In this document: in pieces, positions 2,298 through 27,450 of the stretch | How positions within the stretch are numbered: position 1 is the first letter of the stretch | How the letters are laid out: every line of letters starts with the position of its first letter | Origin: a virus | Virus record (IMG/VR): IMGVR_UViG_3300010885_056683 | Location: 1-42,605 of that record | Reading direction: 5' to 3' (one strand) | DNA length: 42,605 bases | Notes under the pieces: generated by a model | What the model was told of the DNA's origin: nothing | Database searches by the model: none | The model's input: only the letters and a program-made list of their open reading frames with translations | Position numbers and translations under genes: made by a program

Positions 2298-4700
2298 TCA
2301 GACTCCGTTGAGGGTGGCGGTCTTCCCGAAGATGGTGCCGCGGTTTCCGCGGATCGGCGTGGCGGTGCTGTGGTCGAAGACCGTGGGCGCACCCCAGTTG
2401 TCTCGCAAGGTGAACATGCCGGCCGTCCGCACCGCGACGGTCTCGCCGGGTGCGGCAGCGCGATCGGCGACGCCCAGGATGACAGCAGGCGAGGTGTACC
2501 GGATAAAGCGCACGTCCGAGTCCGTTGCGTTGGCATAGGTGATCCAGAAGTCCCCGTTGTTGAGGGCCCTGCACTCCACCGCGGAAACCGACTTCGCTTC
2601 GACGGTGCCAAGGGAGCCTTGCAATACGCCGGTCGCGGAGTACCTGGCGTAGCGGAGGTTGGTGGTGCTGTTGTTGTAGGCGACAACGAACTCGCCTCCG
2701 GGCAGCGCGCCCACGCTGCCGGCCGTGTTGTTCACCGTTTCGACCGTCGTTGCGCTGATTCCTGCGCTGCCGGTCGCGGTCTTGGTGATGTACTTGACGC
2801 TGGTGCCGCTCGGCCCGTAGAGGAAGACGACGCCTCCGGTCGACAGTCCGGCGGCGGCGATCCACGTTGTCGTGACTGCTTCCAGGGTTGCGGGCGCGGC
2901 GACCTGCGTACCGGCGCCGTCGAAGACCGCGAACCGCGGTGCGCTGGCACTGTTCATGTAGCCGATGGCGAAGCCCCCGTTGCGCAGGGCTGCCAGAGCA
3001 CCACGCGCCGCCACCGTCGCCTCCACGGTCGTCAGCGAGCCTTGAAGCACGCCTGCGGCCGAGTACCGGCCAAAACGCACCACGGCGTCGTAGAGGCTCT
3101 CCCAAGCCAGGACGAACTCCCCGTTGGGGAGCGCACTGGCGCTGATCCACCGGGAGTAGACAGCTTCGGCTACGGTTTCCGTCACCTGCACCACGCCAGC
3201 GCGAGACCACACGGTGAATGCTGGAACGTTGTTGATCGTCGTGTACGCGTGCACGAAGGCGCCGCTCGGGAGGCGCGCGGCTGAGCTTGCGGAGGTCGGG
3301 TTCGACACCACGGCCGTCAACGCGCCCTGCGTCACACCACCCGAGGAGTAGCGTTGGAACGAAGAGGACCCGGCGAAAGTGGCGCGACTCTGCCGAATGT
3401 CGGTCGTGGCGTTGCAGTAGAGGATGGCGTTGATGTTCGTCTGCAGACACGCAACCGCCACACCCCGGGCGATGCTGTTCACGGCCTCGACCGTACCGGG
3501 GCTATCCAAGACCACACCGAGGGGGTTGAACTTGGCTGCTCTCACACTGGTCGTGGAGTTGCAGTACGCGATCACGAAGTCCCCGGACGGCATCACGCCA
3601 ACGCTGGCACAATACGATGTCACCGCCTCCACGGTTGTGATGGAGCCTTGCGGCGTACCGGTCGCGTTGAAGCGTGCGAACTTGACGCTGGCGCTGGTGG
3701 CGTACGCGACGACAAAGCCACCGTCATTGAGCCCCACCACACTCATCGAGTCCCATCCGTTGTACACCGTAGCCGCTTCGATCACCGTAACCGCGCTGAC
3801 CGCGGTGCCTGTGCTGTCGTAAATCCGGAAGTTGGGGGCCGCGCCGGTATCTCGCCAGACCACGACAAAGCCGCCGCTAGACAAGGACGCCGCCGCGACG
3901 GCGGCCAGGGACGCGCCGGTGGCGATCTGGGTGTCCGACCCCTGGAGGTCGCCGGCGTTGTTGAAGCGACTGAAACGAACATCGTCGGGGTTGGCCGTGC
4001 TGTTGGCGTACGCGACTACAAAGCCCCCTCCGGTGAGTCCGGCGACACCCACGCCGTAACAGTTCCCGCCGGGGTTGCTGATGGTGGTTGCGGCCTTGAC
4101 GGATCCGCCAGTAGAGTCACGAATCGTATAGCCGAGTTGCCCGCTGGTCTGCCCGTAGACCGCAACGAAGTTGCCGTCCGACAACGGGGCGCAATTAACG
4201 ACTTGGTAAGGCGCAGCGGAGTAGGTCGTGTATGCGCCTACGGTGGACCCGGCGGAGTTCATTACTTCGCCGACAAGGTATCCATTAGAATCAGTACGAG
4301 CTACGACGACGTAATTGCCTCCAGTAAGCACGCAGGCTCGCACTGAGGCCACCGAAGCCGCCTCGACGGCCGCGCCCGAGCCATAAGCTGGGTTCGCAGT
4401 GCTGTAGCCCGCAACGCCTTCGCCGGAAACGCCGCCGACGAAGGTGACGGCCCTCATGCCACTGAGGCTGCCGGTGACCGTGGTGGCACTGCCGTAGGCG
4501 GCTCCCGCGACGCCGCCTGACGGCGCCGCGCCGTACTCGATCGGGAAGACCCCTTCGGCAGTCCCGTTGACGCAGAGCACGTCACCTTGGCGGACCGACT
4601 CCGTGACGACGGCGTAGCCGCCGTCTTCCAGCGGCACGTAGGGGTCCGCTGACGTGACGATCGAGTCCCGAGTTGGGAACCCACTGAGCCCGCGGTTCAC
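2298..4700 (-). CDS. Tail fibre/spike-like protein with about a dozen beta-repeats
   Basis: An 800-residue protein. After an 80-residue N-terminal part, most of it is a series of roughly 45-55-residue repeats with the pattern G-G-F-V-V-A-Y-x-N-S ... A-R-F/Y-x-x-x-G-x-x-Q-G-S-x-x-T-V-E-A, ending in a short non-repeat tail (RGNRGTIFGK). Regular short beta-repeats of this kind fit a beta-propeller or elongated fibre, the usual makeup of receptor-binding virion proteins. The start overlaps the upstream stop as ATGA, so translation is coupled. The repeats resemble WD/kelch-type blades only loosely. The fibre role is inferred from repeats and position. Confidence 0.7.
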   Translation of the reverse strand: MNRGLSGFPTRDSIVTSADPYVPLEDGGYAVVTESVRQGDVLCVNGTAEGVFPIEYGAAPSGGVAGAAYGSATTVTGSLSGMRAVTFVGGVSGEGVAGYSTANPAYGSGAAVEAASVASVRACVLTGGNYVVVARTDSNGYLVGEVMNSAGSTVGAYTTYSAAPYQVVNCAPLSDGNFVAVYGQTSGQLGYTIRDSTGGSVKAATTISNPGGNCYGVGVAGLTGGGFVVAYANSTANPDDVRFSRFNNAGDLQGSDTQIATGASLAAVAAASLSSGGFVVVWRDTGAAPNFRIYDSTGTAVSAVTVIEAATVYNGWDSMSVVGLNDGGFVVAYATSASVKFARFNATGTPQGSITTVEAVTSYCASVGVMPSGDFVIAYCNSTTSVRAAKFNPLGVVLDSPGTVEAVNSIARGVAVACLQTNINAILYCNATTDIRQSRATFAGSSSFQRYSSGGVTQGALTAVVSNPTSASSAARLPSGAFVHAYTTINNVPAFTVWSRAGVVQVTETVAEAVYSRWISASALPNGEFVLAWESLYDAVVRFGRYSAAGVLQGSLTTVEATVAARGALAALRNGGFAIGYMNSASAPRFAVFDGAGTQVAAPATLEAVTTTWIAAAGLSTGGVVFLYGPSGTSVKYITKTATGSAGISATTVETVNNTAGSVGALPGGEFVVAYNNSTTNLRYARYSATGVLQGSLGTVEAKSVSAVECRALNNGDFWITYANATDSDVRFIRYTSPAVILGVADRAAAPGETVAVRTAGMFTLRDNWGAPTVFDHSTATPIRGNRGTIFGKTATLNGV

Positions 4701-5080
4701 AGATCACCCCCGAAGGCGAAGACGTTGAACGTGTTCGCGACTTCCGTCGTCGCGCGCAGGCTGTATCCGGTCGGCAGGACGACGCCGCCCGCCAGCTCGA
4801 CGAGTTGCTCGAAGGTCTTGTCCGTCGCCGCGGGCGTCGTCGCCGGGACGGGCACCTCGGTCAGCAGCCGGGCGTTGCTTCCGTCGTGGATGAACAGCCG
4901 CACAATGCCTACGAGCGTAGACGACACGGCCTTGACCGCCACGTAGTCGACGCGCGTGCCCGAAGAGGCGGCGGTGAGCACGGTGACGACCGTGCCCGTG
5001 CCGTCCCGGTAAGGGTTCGCCGTCGAGACCTGGGCGACAGCGATCCTCGGGGTCGCTGCGAACTGGGGTGCGTTCGCCAT
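4697..5080 (-). CDS. Hypothetical virion protein, 127 aa
   Basis: A small beta-rich protein (VDYVAVKAVSSTLVGIVRLF, then GYSLRATTEVANTFNVFAF). It overlaps the downstream fibre gene by four bases (ATGA) and follows the 140-aa gene after one base. Similar small proteins are common beside phage tail genes. No motif identifies a function. A head-fibre or tail accessory role is inferred from context only. Confidence 0.8.
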   Translation of the reverse strand: MANAPQFAATPRIAVAQVSTANPYRDGTGTVVTVLTAASSGTRVDYVAVKAVSSTLVGIVRLFIHDGSNARLLTEVPVPATTPAATDKTFEQLVELAGGVVLPTGYSLRATTEVANTFNVFAFGGDL

Positions 5081-5081
5081 C

Positions 5082-5504
5082 TCAGATCACTCCTTGTGCG
5101 AAGAGAGCGTAGGAAAGCGCTGCCACACCGCCGCCGCTCCAGTAGTTGGTCGTGCCGTCGCTTGCAAGAACGTGGCCGCTCTTGCCGACCTGCGGGGGAA
5201 GGATTCCGGGGATCGAGCCGATCGTGCCGCGCACCCAGGCGGTGGTTGCGACCACCGTCGAGTCGACCGAGAGAGCGGGCGTCGGCGCGCGGACCTCGGT
5301 AGCCCCGTCGAGGTCCACCGCGCCGGCCGTGTGCGTCATCGTGCCGGTGCTGGTGGGGTTGACGACCGTCACGCGGGCCTGCAGCGCGGCCTCGACGGTG
5401 TCGAAGCCACCCTGGATGCTGAGGTACTCGCTACGGATGGGCGACGATTGGCCCCGCGAGAACGGCACCGGCACGCCCGTTACGGTGTAGTGGGGGTTCG
5501 TCAT
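5082..5504 (-). CDS. Hypothetical tail/fibre-associated protein, 140 aa
   Basis: The N-terminus has short beta-strand segments. The middle (ATEVRAPTPALSVDSTVVAT) and the C-terminal GKSGHVLASDGTTNYWSGGG are of the kind found in phage fibre stalks and baseplate-anchoring domains. It overlaps the end of the 616-aa tail gene by four bases and lies one base before the 127-aa gene. Part of the contiguous tail cluster. Function inferred from context. Confidence 0.75.
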   Translation of the reverse strand: MTNPHYTVTGVPVPFSRGQSSPIRSEYLSIQGGFDTVEAALQARVTVVNPTSTGTMTHTAGAVDLDGATEVRAPTPALSVDSTVVATTAWVRGTIGSIPGILPPQVGKSGHVLASDGTTNYWSGGGVAALSYALFAQGVI

Positions 5505-7351
5505 CGTTGAAGCCTGCGAGGGGTGTAGTGCAACAGCACGGACTGCAAGGTAAAGGGGGCGCTCAGCGCGTCCTTGGAAAAGAACAACAGGCTGATGTTG
5601 CTGCTCGTGCCGTACAGGTCATACCGTGGCGGCGACAGGTAGGGAGAGTCCCATGTGAACTGGTCCCACGTGAACTGGTCCCAGAAGCCACCGGAGCCGG
5701 GGGTATCCGTGTTCTGGGCGAAGTCACTGAGCGAAGTTGCAGCGATCGGAATCGAGTAGTCCCCGTAGTCCAGCTCGAAGGCCATGTACAGCTTCGCGTA
5801 CGACGGGATCAGCATCTCCAGCACCGCGCGGCGCCAGCGCTTGCGCACCGTCGGGCCCCGCTCGGCGTTGAAGGCCAGGCGGATCCAGGATTCAATTTCG
5901 GATCCGTCGAACGAGGTGCCGACCTCCATCTGGTAGACGAAGCCGTTGGTCGAACCGAAGAACGCGACCTCCTGCCCGTCCAGGTCCTCGTTGCTGCACG
6001 CGCACGCAACGGGGTTAGGGTACTGGATGGGCATGATCGCCCGCACACGTCGACCGGAGATCCAGAAGACGAGGCCCCAGCCGCCGTCGAAGTACAGACG
6101 ATAATGATCTTGCGATCTCAATACGCTGGAGGCGGTCGCCGTGCCCCGCCGGAGGTTGACGAAGGGTTGCACCAAAGACGACACGGAAGCCGCAGCGAAG
6201 TTGCCGAAGTCCTGCGTCGTCGCCAACGTGGTGGCACCGCGATCGTCCAAGGAGATCGCCGTCGATACGTACTGAGCGGTGCGCGGCAGGGCTCCGGCGT
6301 CGCTGGAGACAAGACGCAGTCTCCAGGTGTCGGTGCTGTAGCCGTACAGGATCGAGGTCTTGTTGCGTCCGTAGACCGCCAGGGCGGCCGTGTCCCCGTC
6401 GCCTGGCAGCGGCACCAGGCACGTGATCTGGTCCCCCGTCCCGATCTCGGCGGGCGTGCTGCCGACGCCCGCCCATCCGCTCGTGGGGGCTCCGGGGCTG
6501 GAAGCGAAGAGCGAGCCGAGGATCGCCAGGAACAGCCGGTTCTGGTGCGCCGTGATGGCGGAAGGCGTGTCCGGCGTCGCCGTCGAGGTGATTCGCGTGA
6601 ACGTCGTTCCGTCGAACTGGAAAGCCTTGTTCTTGCCGTCGCAGCCGTACATCTTGTACCCGTTGGCCGCGCCCGTGAAGTTGTAGTTCACGAACTCGTA
6701 GGAGCCTCCCGGGAGTTGCGTCACCCCGGTCGAGACCTCCACCCAGCCGCCGGTGGTGGCGTAGTACATGCCCGCGGAAGCGCCGCCGACCTTGTTGCGG
6801 AAGGCGTAGAGCTTGCCGTCGTAGACCCACACCCCCAGGACGCTGCCCTCGCCAGGAACGGCCTGGATGTCGGCACGGCGATCGGCTGCCGCGAGGTTGG
6901 CGTAGGTGAGGTCCGTGAGCACGTCGGCAGCGGCGCCCAATGCCTGTGCGGAGATCGTGCCAACAGGGGAGCCGCTGACGTTGAGCGTCTCCCCGAGCGT
7001 GAAGTCCCCGGAGTTGCGCCCGGTGACCAGGCTCGTCGAGGAGAGGACCGACAGCACCTTCGCGGTCTTCGAAGACGTGACCCCCGTCAGGGTGTCACCG
7101 GCGGCCACGGTGCCGGTCAACGCGACCGTCAGGATCCAGTAGTCCGTCTCGCTAGGCTTCGGCCGGCCATCGAAGCGCTCGTAGCCTCCGACCCGCTTGT
7201 ACCCGCCGCTGATCTCCGGGACGAAGTTGCACGCATCGATGCACGTGCCCGGCTTCAGTTGCAGCGCAGGGGAGACGAGGTCGAGACCTCCTGCGAGCTG
7301 CACGTAGGAGGTCTGCACCGTCGGCATCGCCGAAGGGGCCCAGGGATTCAC
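5501..7351 (-). CDS. Putative tail structural protein, 616 aa
   Basis: Begins at GTG 7351, overlapping the adaptor stop as GTGA; an ATG eight codons in (MPTVQTSYVQLAGGLDLVSP) is an alternative. The N-terminal GGLDLVSP...GTCIDACNF...GGYKRVGGYERF resembles the N-terminus of large podovirus tail or stabilisation proteins that follow the head-tail adaptor. A Gly/Thr/Ser beta insertion covers residues about 70-145, and the rest is beta-rich (for example YGCDGKNKAFQFDG). Length and order (capsid, adaptor, this gene) fit a tail tube or nozzle protein. The family is recognised only loosely. Confidence 0.65.
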   Translation of the reverse strand: MNPWAPSAMPTVQTSYVQLAGGLDLVSPALQLKPGTCIDACNFVPEISGGYKRVGGYERFDGRPKPSETDYWILTVALTGTVAAGDTLTGVTSSKTAKVLSVLSSTSLVTGRNSGDFTLGETLNVSGSPVGTISAQALGAAADVLTDLTYANLAAADRRADIQAVPGEGSVLGVWVYDGKLYAFRNKVGGASAGMYYATTGGWVEVSTGVTQLPGGSYEFVNYNFTGAANGYKMYGCDGKNKAFQFDGTTFTRITSTATPDTPSAITAHQNRLFLAILGSLFASSPGAPTSGWAGVGSTPAEIGTGDQITCLVPLPGDGDTAALAVYGRNKTSILYGYSTDTWRLRLVSSDAGALPRTAQYVSTAISLDDRGATTLATTQDFGNFAAASVSSLVQPFVNLRRGTATASSVLRSQDHYRLYFDGGWGLVFWISGRRVRAIMPIQYPNPVACACSNEDLDGQEVAFFGSTNGFVYQMEVGTSFDGSEIESWIRLAFNAERGPTVRKRWRRAVLEMLIPSYAKLYMAFELDYGDYSIPIAATSLSDFAQNTDTPGSGGFWDQFTWDQFTWDSPYLSPPRYDLYGTSSNISLLFFSKDALSAPFTLQSVLLHYTPRRLQR

Positions 7352-24073: not shown

Positions 24074-24125
24074 GCCCCGATTCTAGGGGTCCTTCCTCGG
24101 AAGTTCTACCCGCAGAACGCCCGAG

Positions 24126-24250
24126 TACCCGACTAAAAAGCTCGGACAAATACCCGACTAAAAAGCTCGGACGAATACCCGACTAAAAAGCTCGGACAAA
24201 TACCCGACTAAAAAGCTCGGACTAATACCCGACAAGCGAACTCGGACATT
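24126..24250. repeat. Five 25-bp direct repeats (iteron-like)
   Basis: Copies start at 24126, 24151, 24176, 24201 and 24226, spaced exactly 25 bp. The unit begins TACCCGACTAAAAAGCTCGG; the first four are almost identical and the fifth is diverged. Each unit contains a CCGA ... TCGG inverted repeat around an A-run. On the minus strand each also holds TTGTCC and, 16 bp on, TATT[C/T]G, a weak promoter-like pair. Phased repeats like these bind a protein cooperatively; the terminase small subunit (pac site), a replication initiator or a regulator are all possible. Confidence 0.9.
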
Positions 24251-24331: not shown

Positions 24332-24718
24332 CTGTTCTGCCGGCTGAGGAAACGACGCCGGGCCCGCCTCGGAGGCACCTGGGAAGGACCCCTCCGACAA
24401 GCCGGCAGCAGGACGGAATCCTGCCTCTGCCCGGGAGCTCCGGGACGAGGGGCCGACAGGCCAGCGGGTCGAGAGACCTCCGCACCTCGGACGCGAACGG
24501 CCCGCGATACGGTCGGCCCCCGGAGGGCTGCGTCAAGGACGCGGTCGGCGCAGTAAGCGCCCCAGACAACGGCGAGAGGGGAAGCGGGGTTACGCCCCGC
24601 CCAGCAGGAACGCCTGACAAGCGGATATGCCTGCCGACACCGACCCCCTCGGGGGGAGGTCAATGCGCCGGCCCCGACGCATCGATCTCCCCGCCCCCAA
24701 CCCACAGGAGCCCCCCGC

Positions 24719-25245: not shown

Positions 25246-25443
25246 ATGAACAAGCTCACCCCCTACATCGCCTGCTCGATCGTCGAAGGCTTCGACGGAG
25301 GCACCGACGCAAGCCTGGAAGAGCAACTCGCCGCCTGGCAGTACCTGATCGACTCCGGAACCGTCTGGCAACTGCAAGGCTGGTATGGCCGCACGGCCGC
25401 CGCCCTGATCGAAGCCGGTCACTGCCATCGGAGGGCCGCATGA
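25246..25443 (+). CDS. Small early protein, DUF7417-like
   Basis: 65 residues, with the shared leader. The segment AWQYLIDSGTVWQLQGWYGR followed by TAAALIEAGHC is a pattern seen in many unnamed phage proteins. The stop overlaps the next ATG as ATGA. Function unknown; the family assignment is from memory of its pattern. Confidence 0.65.
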   Translation: MNKLTPYIACSIVEGFDGGTDASLEEQLAAWQYLIDSGTVWQLQGWYGRTAAALIEAGHCHRRAA

Positions 25444-25613
25444 ACAAGCCTCTGCTTCCGCCCGCTCTGCGCATCGTCCACAACCGCCTGCTCGGTGGGT
25501 GGTTCATTGTTCGAAGTCGTCACGACACCCCGATCGGCGGCCGGCACGAAAGCCGCGCCTCAGCGCTGGCCTGGCTCCGAACCAGTGCCATGTTCCGCAC
25601 CCCCGGACCGTAG
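25440..25613 (+). CDS. Small hypothetical early protein, 57 aa
   Basis: ATG 25440 overlaps the previous stop (ATGA). Product: MNKPLLPPALRIVHNRLLGG, then GWFIVRSRHDTPIGGRHESR and a short helix. Its stop is immediately followed by the first copy of the two-hairpin element. Function unknown. Confidence 0.65.
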   Translation: MNKPLLPPALRIVHNRLLGGWFIVRSRHDTPIGGRHESRASALAWLRTSAMFRTPGP

Positions 25614-25664
25614 CCGCGATGCGCCCCGTCGGGCGCATGCGAGTGCAGTCCCGCACTGAACCCC
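25613..25664 (+). repeat. Two-hairpin element, copy 1
   Basis: Contains ATGCGCCC/GGGCGCAT (8-bp stem, 4-base loop) followed directly by AGTGC/GCACT (6-base loop) and the tail TGAACCCC. Copy 2 at 27090-27142 keeps the same layout although the first stem differs in sequence. It lies right after one gene's stop and before the leader of the DUF932 gene. There is no U-run. A transcript-processing site, translation control or protein-binding RNA are possible. Confidence 0.75.
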
Positions 25665-25684
25665 GCAACCCACGGAGACCCCGC

Positions 25685-26803
25685 ATGGACAACCTGATGT
25701 CCGCCAACGCTCAATGGTCCAGCCGCCCCGCCGATGAACGCTTCTGCAGCCTGCTGGAGATGCACGCCGCCCTCGAAACCCAGCGCGCGATCTCGCGCGC
25801 CAAGGTCGTCTCGTCCCGGGACCTGCTCGTGCGCCCCGTCGAAGACTCCGCCCACAAGGGCCTGGAGGTCGTCAGCCGGGCCGGCGTGCCCTACGCCCCG
25901 TCGCACTGGGCCTTCGGCCAGCTCGCGTCCCTCGTGGGCGCGCCGGCCAGCTACCTGCGCACGTTGCCCGCCGAGATGGCCGCCGACTGCCTCAACTACG
26001 GGCTACAGGTCGAGCGCGGCCCCGAAGATGTCGGCGTGCTGATCCGCGCCGACGGCGGCAGCCGCACGCTCGCCGCCGCGACCGGGCCCCGCTACGGCCG
26101 GATCTGGAACGTCGAGGTGGTGCGCGCCCTGATCCAGCAAGTCGGCGACGGCGTGTCCGGCCGCTGGAGCGTGCCGCAGGAATCGAAGTGGGCCGGCCTG
26201 GTGGCCGCGGCTGACCGGCCGCCGATCACGAAGGCGTCGACCACGCTCTACGCAGGCGACCGCGACATGTGGGTCTTCCTCGCCGACGAGCACAACCGGA
26301 TCGAGATCCCGAACCGGCGCGACGGCCAGCCCGGCACGCTCGCCCGCGGCGTGATCGTGAGCAACTCCGAGGTGGGCAGCGCCACCCTGCGCGTGCAGAC
26401 CTTCCTCTTCGATGCCATGTGCTGCAACCACATCATCTGGGATGTGCAGGGCATGCAGGAGATCGCGATCCGCCACACCGCGAGCGCGCCCGACCGCTAC
26501 CTCGAAGAGGTAATGCCCGCCCTCGTGCAGTACGCCGGGAGCTCCACCGCCGGCATCCTCGACACGGTCGAGCGGGCCCGCGCGGCACGCGTGCCGAACA
26601 AGGTCGACGAGTTCCTCGCGACCCGCTTCGGCGCCCGCATCGGCCCGCGCGTGGCCGCCGCGCACATGACCGACGAAGGCCGCCCGATCGAAACGATCTG
26701 GGACGTGGTCACCGGTGCCACGGCGTACGCCCGCAGCATCCCCGACCAGAGTGATCGCCTGGCCTTCGAGCGCGACGCCTCGGCGCTGCTGAGCAAGGTC
26801 TGA
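25685..26803 (+). CDS. DUF932 (phage/plasmid-like) protein
   Basis: 372 residues; ATG 25685 follows GGAGACCCCGCATG. The order of blocks fits DUF932: an early YAPSHWAFGQLASLVGAPAS, then the conserved GPRYGRIWNVEVVRAL, middle VFLADEHNRIEIPN and GVIVSNSEVGSATLRVQTFL, then FDAMCCNHIIWDVQG. DUF932 proteins occur in phages and plasmids; their molecular role is not established, although location among early replication genes suggests DNA metabolism. Longest gene of the early block. Confidence 0.8.
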   Translation: MDNLMSANAQWSSRPADERFCSLLEMHAALETQRAISRAKVVSSRDLLVRPVEDSAHKGLEVVSRAGVPYAPSHWAFGQLASLVGAPASYLRTLPAEMAADCLNYGLQVERGPEDVGVLIRADGGSRTLAAATGPRYGRIWNVEVVRALIQQVGDGVSGRWSVPQESKWAGLVAAADRPPITKASTTLYAGDRDMWVFLADEHNRIEIPNRRDGQPGTLARGVIVSNSEVGSATLRVQTFLFDAMCCNHIIWDVQGMQEIAIRHTASAPDRYLEEVMPALVQYAGSSTAGILDTVERARAARVPNKVDEFLATRFGARIGPRVAAAHMTDEGRPIETIWDVVTGATAYARSIPDQSDRLAFERDASALLSKV

Positions 26804-26893
26804 CCGAAGCCTGTGCAGGTGGGGCCCCGCCCCAGTCATCAGGTCGACTGGCCCCCGTAAGGGGCCCCCCTTCTACCCCTCAAGAACACCCGC
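26804..26893 (+). other. Structured 90-base spacer
   Basis: Holds several inverted repeats in a row: GGGGC/GCCCC near 26821-26834, AGTC/GACT around 26835, and GGCCCC CGTAA GGGGCC (6-bp stem, 5-base loop) near 26850. No gene fits. As with the two-hairpin element it sits between early genes, suggesting RNA-level control. Confidence 0.55.
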
Positions 26894-27085
26894 ATGAACT
26901 ACTCCCAACACCTTGCTGCGCAACGCTCGACATTGCAGCCCGAAGCCTTATGCCAGGTGATGGCCGTTGTGATGTCTTCCCGCAACTGGAACGACTCGGC
27001 GATGCGCCTCCTGCCCGATTGGCGCCTGGTCTACCCCGTCGACCCCCGCATCGGTGAGACGACCCGCTACCTGCCTGAGGCCTGA
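26894..27085 (+). CDS. Small hypothetical early protein, 63 aa
   Basis: ATG 26894 is preceded by AAGAACACCCGC, a weak form of the shared leader. Product: MNYSQHLAAQRSTLQPEALC, then a helix and WRLVYPVDPRIGETTRYL. The second two-hairpin element follows its stop. Function unknown. Confidence 0.65.
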   Translation: MNYSQHLAAQRSTLQPEALCQVMAVVMSSRNWNDSAMRLLPDWRLVYPVDPRIGETTRYLPEA

Positions 27086-27089
27086 CCGC

Positions 27090-27142
27090 AGCCGCTATGC
27101 CCCCGCCCGGAGGCATGCGAGTGCGATCGTGCACTGAACCCC
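27090..27142 (+). repeat. Two-hairpin element, copy 2
   Basis: Starts GCCGCTATGCC; the first stem is ATGCC/GGCAT (with an inner CC/GG), then AGTGC/GCACT around GATCGT and the same TGAACCCC tail as copy 1 at 25613-25664. The changed bases in the first stem keep the pairing, which supports RNA structure. It again sits between a stop and a GGAGACC leader. Confidence 0.75.
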
Positions 27143-27153
27143 AGGAGACCTAC

Positions 27154-27450
27154 ATGAACACCGCCGTCCTTTCCCGCAGCGTCTCTCGCCGCCTCGCCGC
27201 CCAGGTCGATACGCTCGGCGCCCTCAACGCCCAGATCGCCGAACTGCAGGGTCAAGCCGAACTGATCAAGGCCGAGCTGAAGTCGACCGGCCTCGACACG
27301 ATCGAGGGCGTGGTCTTCAAGTGCGTGATCGCCGTCGTCGAGCAGGCCCGCCTCGACAGCAGCAAGGTCAAGGCCCTGCTGACCCCGGCGCAGATCGCCG
27401 CCTGCACCCGCGTGACCGAGAGCGTCCGGCTCACGGTCTTCGACCGCTGA
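27154..27450 (+). CDS. Hypothetical early protein with coiled coil, 98 aa
   Basis: ATG 27154 after AGGAGACCTAC. The helix ALNAQIAELQGQAELIKAEL is followed by a small domain, with KVKALLTPAQIAACTRVTES near the end. This layout (coiled coil, then a short domain ending in RVTESVRLTV) is common in phage early proteins of unknown role. The upstream frame from 27097 lacks a ribosome site. Confidence 0.7.
   Translation: MNTAVLSRSVSRRLAAQVDTLGALNAQIAELQGQAELIKAELKSTGLDTIEGVVFKCVIAVVEQARLDSSKVKALLTPAQIAACTRVTESVRLTVFDR

Follow-up and report, generated by a model that had tools for sequence, protein, structure and literature searches.

Two Copies of an Intercistronic Element

The window (the whole stretch of DNA analysed here) is an entire IMG/VR virus record of 42,605 bases, and the element described below lies twice in an operon for which the label "early" is an assumption. 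A block with the pattern AGTGC-N6-GCACTGAACCCC occurs without mismatches at 25642-25664 and 27120-27142, and no third site was found in the window with up to three mismatches (0.20 expected). Aligned, the two copies form a 62-nt repeat with 79% identity. The first starts at a TAG stop codon (25611-25613) and the second 4 nt past a TGA stop codon (27083-27085), and behind each comes GGAGACC with an ATG (25685 and 27154, respectively); the initial annotation had thus been right to place them after a stop codon and before a GGAGACC leader. Three helices can be drawn in each copy: P0, which includes the upstream stop codon, the hairpin P1 and the short hairpin P2. The features, all on the + strand, are the following:

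25605-25612, +: 5′ strand of P0 in copy 1, GGACCGUA, overlapping the TAG stop (25611-25613) of the ORF at 25440-25613
25613-25614, +: 5′ side (GC) of the 2x2 internal loop of copy 1, with the 3′ side (AG) at 25642-25643
25615-25641, +: P1 of copy 1 by folding, with outer CGC/GCG pairs, one bulged base, stem AUGCGCCC/GGGCGCAU and loop CGUC
25642-25657, +: P2 of copy 1, AGUGC-AGUCCC-GCACU, by folding and the family test
25644-25651, +: 3′ strand of P0 in copy 1, UGCAGUCC, shared with the 5′ strand and loop of P2
25674-25687, +: Shine-Dalgarno sequence GGAGACC (25674-25680) and ATG (25685) downstream of copy 1
25685-26803, +: gene 3′ of copy 1, 372 aa, phrog_1362, with a Pfam DUF932 match below the curated cut-off
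27083-27090, +: 5′ strand of P0 in copy 2, UGACCGCA, containing the TGA stop (27083-27085) of the ORF at 26894-27085
27091-27092, +: 5′ side (GC) of the internal loop of copy 2, with the 3′ side (AG) at 27120-27121
27093-27119, +: P1 of copy 2, with CGC/GCG pairs, a bulged U and stem AUGCC(C)CC/GG(A)GGCAU with one mismatch
27120-27135, +: P2 of copy 2, AGUGC-GAUCGU-GCACU, by folding
27122-27129, +: 3′ strand of P0 in copy 2, UGCGAUCG
27144-27156, +: Shine-Dalgarno sequence GGAGACC (27144-27150) and ATG (27154) downstream of copy 2
27154-27450, +: gene 3′ of copy 2, 98 aa, with no family match

P1 is formed by ATGCGCCC/GGGCGCAT pairing in copy 1 and by ATGCC/GGCAT plus two further pairs, with one C.A mismatch, in copy 2, the outer CGC/GCG pairs being present in both; the preceding hairpin had been noted to differ in sequence and still to pair, and its stem indeed forms in both copies. 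By themselves, these two copies would say little about compensation, as two matches are also obtained in 4 of 100 shuffles. A covariance model of the element (R1) scores them at 71.3 and 67.6 bits, respectively, the next match in the window reaching 16.4 bits.

Other repeats and hairpins are found in the window. Five head-to-tail 25-bp repeats (TACCCGACTAAAAAGCTCGGACAAA) at 24122-24248 separate the leftward terminase-side genes from the rightward block and could be an origin, an operator or a promoter array. The leader of the first rightward gene (24719) contains at 24655-24692 a strong hairpin, GGGGAGGUC..AUGCG/CGCAU..GAUCUCCCC, which partially matches R1 and lacks AGCC/GAGUG. The record opens (1-100) with 16.7 perfect copies of GGTGCC, which may be an assembly end artefact.

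Distribution of the Element

Members of the family were gathered by pattern scans of viral contigs and with two covariance models (R1 and R2); the scan patterns fixed the CGC/GCG and, mostly, the ATG(C) pairs, and never the variable upper stem of P1. Together, the scans and the covariance-model search, a kind of check that the initial annotation had proposed, uncovered further copies in relatives, with 31 full copies in about ten groups of phage contigs, so that the sequence part of the refuting condition set by that annotation does not apply. The groups are the window with L001 and L002; G001 (L003/L015), with five copies; L164/L166; L165; L177, with two copies; L178/L179, with one and four copies; L212/L229/L239; L252/L261/L310; L007, with seven copies at 4417-7127, the first of which is aberrant and stands outside the 31; and L390. 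A single contig of 7.9 kb holds as many as seven copies, and one of 63.7 kb holds five. Members other than the Erythrobacter phage lead described below are metagenomic and mostly fragments. L032 and L038/L039, which have P1 without P2, were not counted, and the match in L037 is probably due to chance.

Among INPHARED phages no convincing blastn match to the element was found, and in phages with a DUF7417 neighbour it is missing, at the sensitivity of R1 and R2, at 44 of 45 loci, L390 being the one that has it. Searches with both models of about 1,300 genomes from four proteobacterial orders, run with strict filters and few candidates scored per genome, gave no true copy; one bacterial match (G172) lies inside a coding gene. 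The only exact-pattern match in 399 Burkholderiales genomes has no P1 by eye, and the exact pattern occurs in at least 119 stretches of genome contigs, none of which has P1 among the matches listed; such P1-less stretches are expected, because this is the chance level for 15 fixed bases. Exact-pattern matches in Rikenellaceae were also discarded as a different, AT-flanked repeat. The Rikenellaceae MAG WRDF01 carries many copies of this unrelated dispersed repeat, CAAAGTnATTCATGCGAGTGCCGCRAGGCACTTTTT (contigs L052, L056, L069, L070, L076, L085, L096, L100, L104 and L105).

Selection on Pairing in P1 and P2

The initial annotation had taken the compensating changes between the two window copies as a sign of a selected RNA structure, a reading that covariation in the relatives bears out. 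In the first alignment (A2), 21 cells of the upper P1 stem are changed on both sides of a pair, against 8.1 in shuffles. In a later one composed of 23 distinct sequences (A3), compensated changes are present in 9 of the 11 P1 pairs, with 41 both-side-changed cells against 13.1 in shuffled alignments (none of 500 shuffles reaching the observed value), and 97.8% of the cells pair, against 82.6% in shuffles. This signal collapses when the partner strand is slid by 1-3 columns. Since A3 was fitted to the model, the anchored tests described below weigh more.

P2 was scored on 16 copies fetched without requiring it, and its stem reaches 65, compared with 40.9 ± 6.2 when shuffled and 57.5 for the highest of 500 shuffles. 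The hairpin can be built from other sequences (CGUC-AUCCC-GACG in L165 and GUGG-UCAAC-CCAC in L178) and is longer, with an internal loop, in the L179 copies; one G001 copy (at 27214) keeps P0 and P1 and has no proper P2.

A Third Helix and Two Mutually Exclusive Folds

In the folding of the L007 copies, the flank that contains the stop codon pairs with the loop of the second hairpin. This helix, P0, is formed by the 5′ flank, including the upstream stop (usually UGA-N4-AGCC), and GAGUG-NNNN-UC. It was tested with the copies anchored on AGCC and GAGUG, ungapped, over pairs 3-8, dealing the 3′ strands anew among copies as the shuffle: 4.79 of 6 pairs are formed on average, against 3.29 ± 0.18 after shuffling, a value that none of 20,000 shuffles reaches, and with one copy per phage group only about 5e-6 of the shuffles reach the observed value. 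With the register shifted by one or two bases, no more than 2.41 pairs are formed. In a further alignment (A4), P0 and the outer P1 pairs show 46 both-side changes against 14.4 ± 3.1; column pair 7-52, for instance, is C-G in 8, G-C in 8 and U-A in 7 sequences, and the inner part of P0 is also recovered by RNAalifold without guidance. Because P0 was in none of the search models, its covariation constitutes an independent test.

The 3′ strand of P0 coincides with the 5′ strand and loop of P2, and the two helices are mutually exclusive because they use the same bases. The element thus folds, its folds are under selection, and it has three helices, two of which exclude each other; this structural part of the explanation is held with very high confidence. 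What stands from the initial annotation is the selected RNA structure, whereas its two hairpins in a row give way to a bistable, three-helix arrangement that includes the upstream stop codon.

According to predicted energies (37 °C, naked RNA), 22 of 26 copies prefer the extended P0+P1 fold, mostly by 1.5-6 kcal/mol, and the P2 fold is more stable in the other four. In the window, 25605-25612 pairs with 25644-25651 and 27083-27090 with 27122-27129, each with one C.A mismatch, and the predicted values for the extended and the P2 fold are -30.5 and -26.7 kcal/mol in copy 1, and -23.6 and -21.0 kcal/mol in copy 2. The extended hairpin is irregular, with about 20 pair layers and internal loops in nearly every copy. 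A GC/AG internal loop lies between P0 and P1 in 30 of the 31 copies, the 3′ side being GG in L390. In the P2 fold of most copies, P1 and P2 are 0-1 nt apart.

Position of the Element at Gene Junctions

The element recurs at many junctions per phage, begins no more than 6 nt from the stop codon of the upstream gene or overlaps it, and ends just 5′ of the next ribosome-binding site. The stop codon is spaced as TGA-N4-AGCC in 19 of the 31 copies, a TAG overlaps AGCC in five, and TGA lies 5-6 nt from AGCC in six and 11 nt in one; a start codon with a Shine-Dalgarno sequence follows, mostly 52-106 nt 3′ of AGCC. The aberrant L007 copy (4417) lies in a leader, has a different P1, retains GUGC-N6-GCAC and is not preceded by any assignable stop codon, which implies that termination on UGA is not essential everywhere. 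Two sigma-54-like sites (TGGCAC-N5-TTGC and TGGCAC-N5-ATGC) are found at 4120-4250 of the same contig, upstream of the seven-copy operon.

Members of one gene family (phrog_1362; Pfam DUF932) follow a copy both in the window and in the distant L178, and other copies are followed by unrelated small genes. The L007 copies at 5276 and 6464 are identical over the whole element and stand before different genes, which shows that copies undergo exchange or duplication separately from the genes. A 63-aa gene separates the DUF932-like gene from the following element in the window, and in L002 the element is directly 3′ of the DUF932-like gene. At 26801-26893 of the window, the stop of the DUF932-like gene reads TGA-CCGA-AGCC and is followed by other hairpins, with a fold no better than that of shuffles (z -0.44); this stretch is maybe a decayed copy. 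In both window copies an upstream frame crosses the element (ATG CGA GTG...) in phase with the next gene; its translation was discarded, as most L007 copies have no ATG or have it out of frame.

Comparison with Known Elements

Searches against Rfam 15 gave no family at gathering score on the window, except a tRNA, and none on nine member loci, and permissive searches gave chance-level matches only. An intrinsic terminator has a U run behind a G+C-rich hairpin. In the two window copies, P1 is followed by AGUGC and P2 by (U)GAACCCC, neither being a U run, and this assignment was rejected. Bacterial REP elements have a GTAG hairpin foot, many chromosomal copies and a linked RAYT transposase, and such a foot is present in only part of the copies of the family. 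No comparable phage element was found in a search of the literature outside subscription papers.

The closest system in position and repetition is the ESAS/SAS of Cluster K mycobacteriophages, likewise repeated 5′ of ribosome-binding sites: a conserved inverted-repeat element (ESAS) just upstream of the ribosome-binding sites of several non-structural genes per phage, and a 13-bp start-associated sequence (SAS), GGGATAGGAGCCC, before the start codon (PMC3203893). Departures in the ESAS arms are generally uncompensated, and its authors doubted that hairpins form and favoured DNA binding (PMC3203893), whereas compensation is strong in the arms of the element described here, which also takes in the stop codon. 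Identity with SAS was discarded, since the window leaders read GGAGACC-N3/4-ATG and not the 13-bp GGGATAGGAGCCC.

Proposed Function and Alternative Explanations

We prefer to read the element as a translation-gated, cis-acting intercistronic RNA signal of polycistronic mRNA, to which we assign somewhat less than an even chance. In RNA that is not being translated, P0 and P1 would form the extended hairpin, of about 20 bp and containing the GC/AG loop; a ribosome ending on UGA would mask the 5′ strand of P0, P2 would then form, and P1 would stay. This gating step by the terminating ribosome is possible, and we hold it tentatively. A trans-acting partner would distinguish the two states, recognising the GC/AG loop or the irregular helix of about 20 bp; the likeliest partners are an endoribonuclease (RNase III, for example) and an RNA-binding protein, of phage or host, that reads this loop. 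Another candidate reader is ribosome scanning, which structure behind a stop codon could affect (PMC12548453). For the next gene this would lead to processing, to stabilisation or to independent translation, a nuclease outcome being in itself rather doubtful. Predicted accessibility of the Shine-Dalgarno sequence does not differ between the folds (0.47 vs. 0.44), so that the state has to be sensed by other means; of the processing site or translation control element that the initial annotation had put forward with a "perhaps", the simplest form of the second is thereby made less likely. Taken as a whole, a modular bistable intercistronic RNA whose P0-to-P2 switch would report whether the upstream gene has just been translated, the junction being processed or read accordingly, may be somewhat unlikely. 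Provided that the switch exists, it would be a small natural device that ties what happens to a gene to translation of the one before it, and, as phage early operons contain many short genes, the element offers a specific, testable handle on how their junctions are managed.

The early region of T7 carries irregular intercistronic hairpins of about 20 bp that are RNase III sites and are repeated along the early operon. The first rival of the translation-gated signal is a static processing signal in this style, in which the extended hairpin would be cut in every early transcript and P2 would protect the new 5′ end, with no sensing of ribosomes. The irregular hairpin with its internal loops in nearly every copy, the way the element fills the intercistronic gap and its repetition along one operon fit well with it, as does the likeness to the T7 sites in having an intercistronic hairpin of about 20 bp with an internal loop. 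However, AGCC/GAGUG is the most invariant part of the element, conserved in primary sequence across distant phages, and RNase III has no need of such sequence; the joint retention of the overlapping P0 and P2 is also left unexplained, T7 sites having no such competing helix. Cleavage is here a candidate only, and we consider this explanation unlikely. A lower probability, still short of remote, is given to a site for an RNA-binding protein that co-regulates the downstream genes (a translational operator) or to a put-like antitermination element acting on RNA polymerase. An invariant internal loop with its flanking pairs amid freely covarying stems, and several copies per operon, would suit both. 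The put RNA of phage HK022 is a cis-acting element of about 70 nt with two stem-loops, present at two promoter-proximal sites, which causes antitermination without any phage protein, via the zinc-binding domain of RNA polymerase (PMC9378689), and the P1+P2 fold also has two stem-loops, 0-1 nt apart. But put is described at two places behind early promoters, and the element here stands at up to seven successive junctions and has an alternative fold with its 5′ flank; access to the Shine-Dalgarno sequence is also predicted to be unaffected.

A translational insulator, i.e., a structure behind the stop codon that blocks ribosome scanning so that each gene uses its own Shine-Dalgarno sequence, is quite improbable: the element is directly 3′ of the stop codon, and structure just downstream of an upstream stop is reported in a 2025 review to accompany weaker coupling (PMC12548453), but any hairpin would serve, leaving the sequence conservation and the P0/P2 overlap unexplained, and the L007 copy at 4417 follows no assigned stop. 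Equally addressed to translation is an attenuator-type switch that would hide or expose the downstream Shine-Dalgarno sequence, and it ranks as the least probable of all. The mutually exclusive P0 and P2 are attenuator-like, and the proposed choice of a helix by the ribosome on the upstream ORF is shared with coupling and attenuation RNAs (PMC12548453); here, however, the Shine-Dalgarno sequence is predicted to be hidden in neither fold, it and the AUG being equally accessible in both states in most copies, and the element is modular and repeated. Inspection by eye of the P2 loop against the Shine-Dalgarno sequence gave no consistent complementarity. The signal could instead reside in DNA. Integron attC sites have an R′/R′′ core, GTTRRRY/RYYYAAC, and resemble the element in having one folded site per gene boundary, more conservation of structure than of sequence and a variable terminal stem. 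An attC-like recombination or cassette site acting as single-stranded DNA, or else an operator or promoter repeat, would account for the gene-wise orientation, the repeats at junctions, the identical copies before different genes and the 63-aa gene lying between the DUF932-like gene and the element in the window and missing there in L002. This is nevertheless very unlikely, since the attC core is missing at the hairpin base, which reads UGA-N4-AGCC/GAGUG-N4-UC in these phage operons, the P2 helix would have no role in an attC-like site, and a palindrome bound by protein as DNA would not need covariation in its apical stem.

Possible Diverged Forms and Other Observations

Outside the family that can be detected, diverged forms of this layout may exist, for instance near the DUF932-like gene of the cultured Erythrobacter phage ZS04, and a covariance model is now at hand for finding further copies. 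Two intercistronic gaps near that gene (L404, 7128-7203 and 5894-5992) fold into a stop-codon-containing helix that overlaps a short hairpin, one as UGACAGCGCC.../GGGCGCUGUU with GGGC-GCUGUU-GCCC and the other as UGACCCC.../GGGGCCA with GGGG-CCAGA-CCCC. The R2 model does not match these gaps, and a generic scan of the ZS04 genome for the P0/P2 layout did no better than shuffles; the gaps are a lead, in which their layout suggests a putative diverged form of the element. The ZS04 gene between them (ZS04_54, 5992-7128) is annotated as an "integrase", yet its product shares 50% identity with the window's DUF932-like protein. Limnohabitans phage DC33 (L399, PQ492659) is filed under Inoviridae despite its 39 kb genome and a 9.4 kb ORF, and this taxonomy looks wrong.
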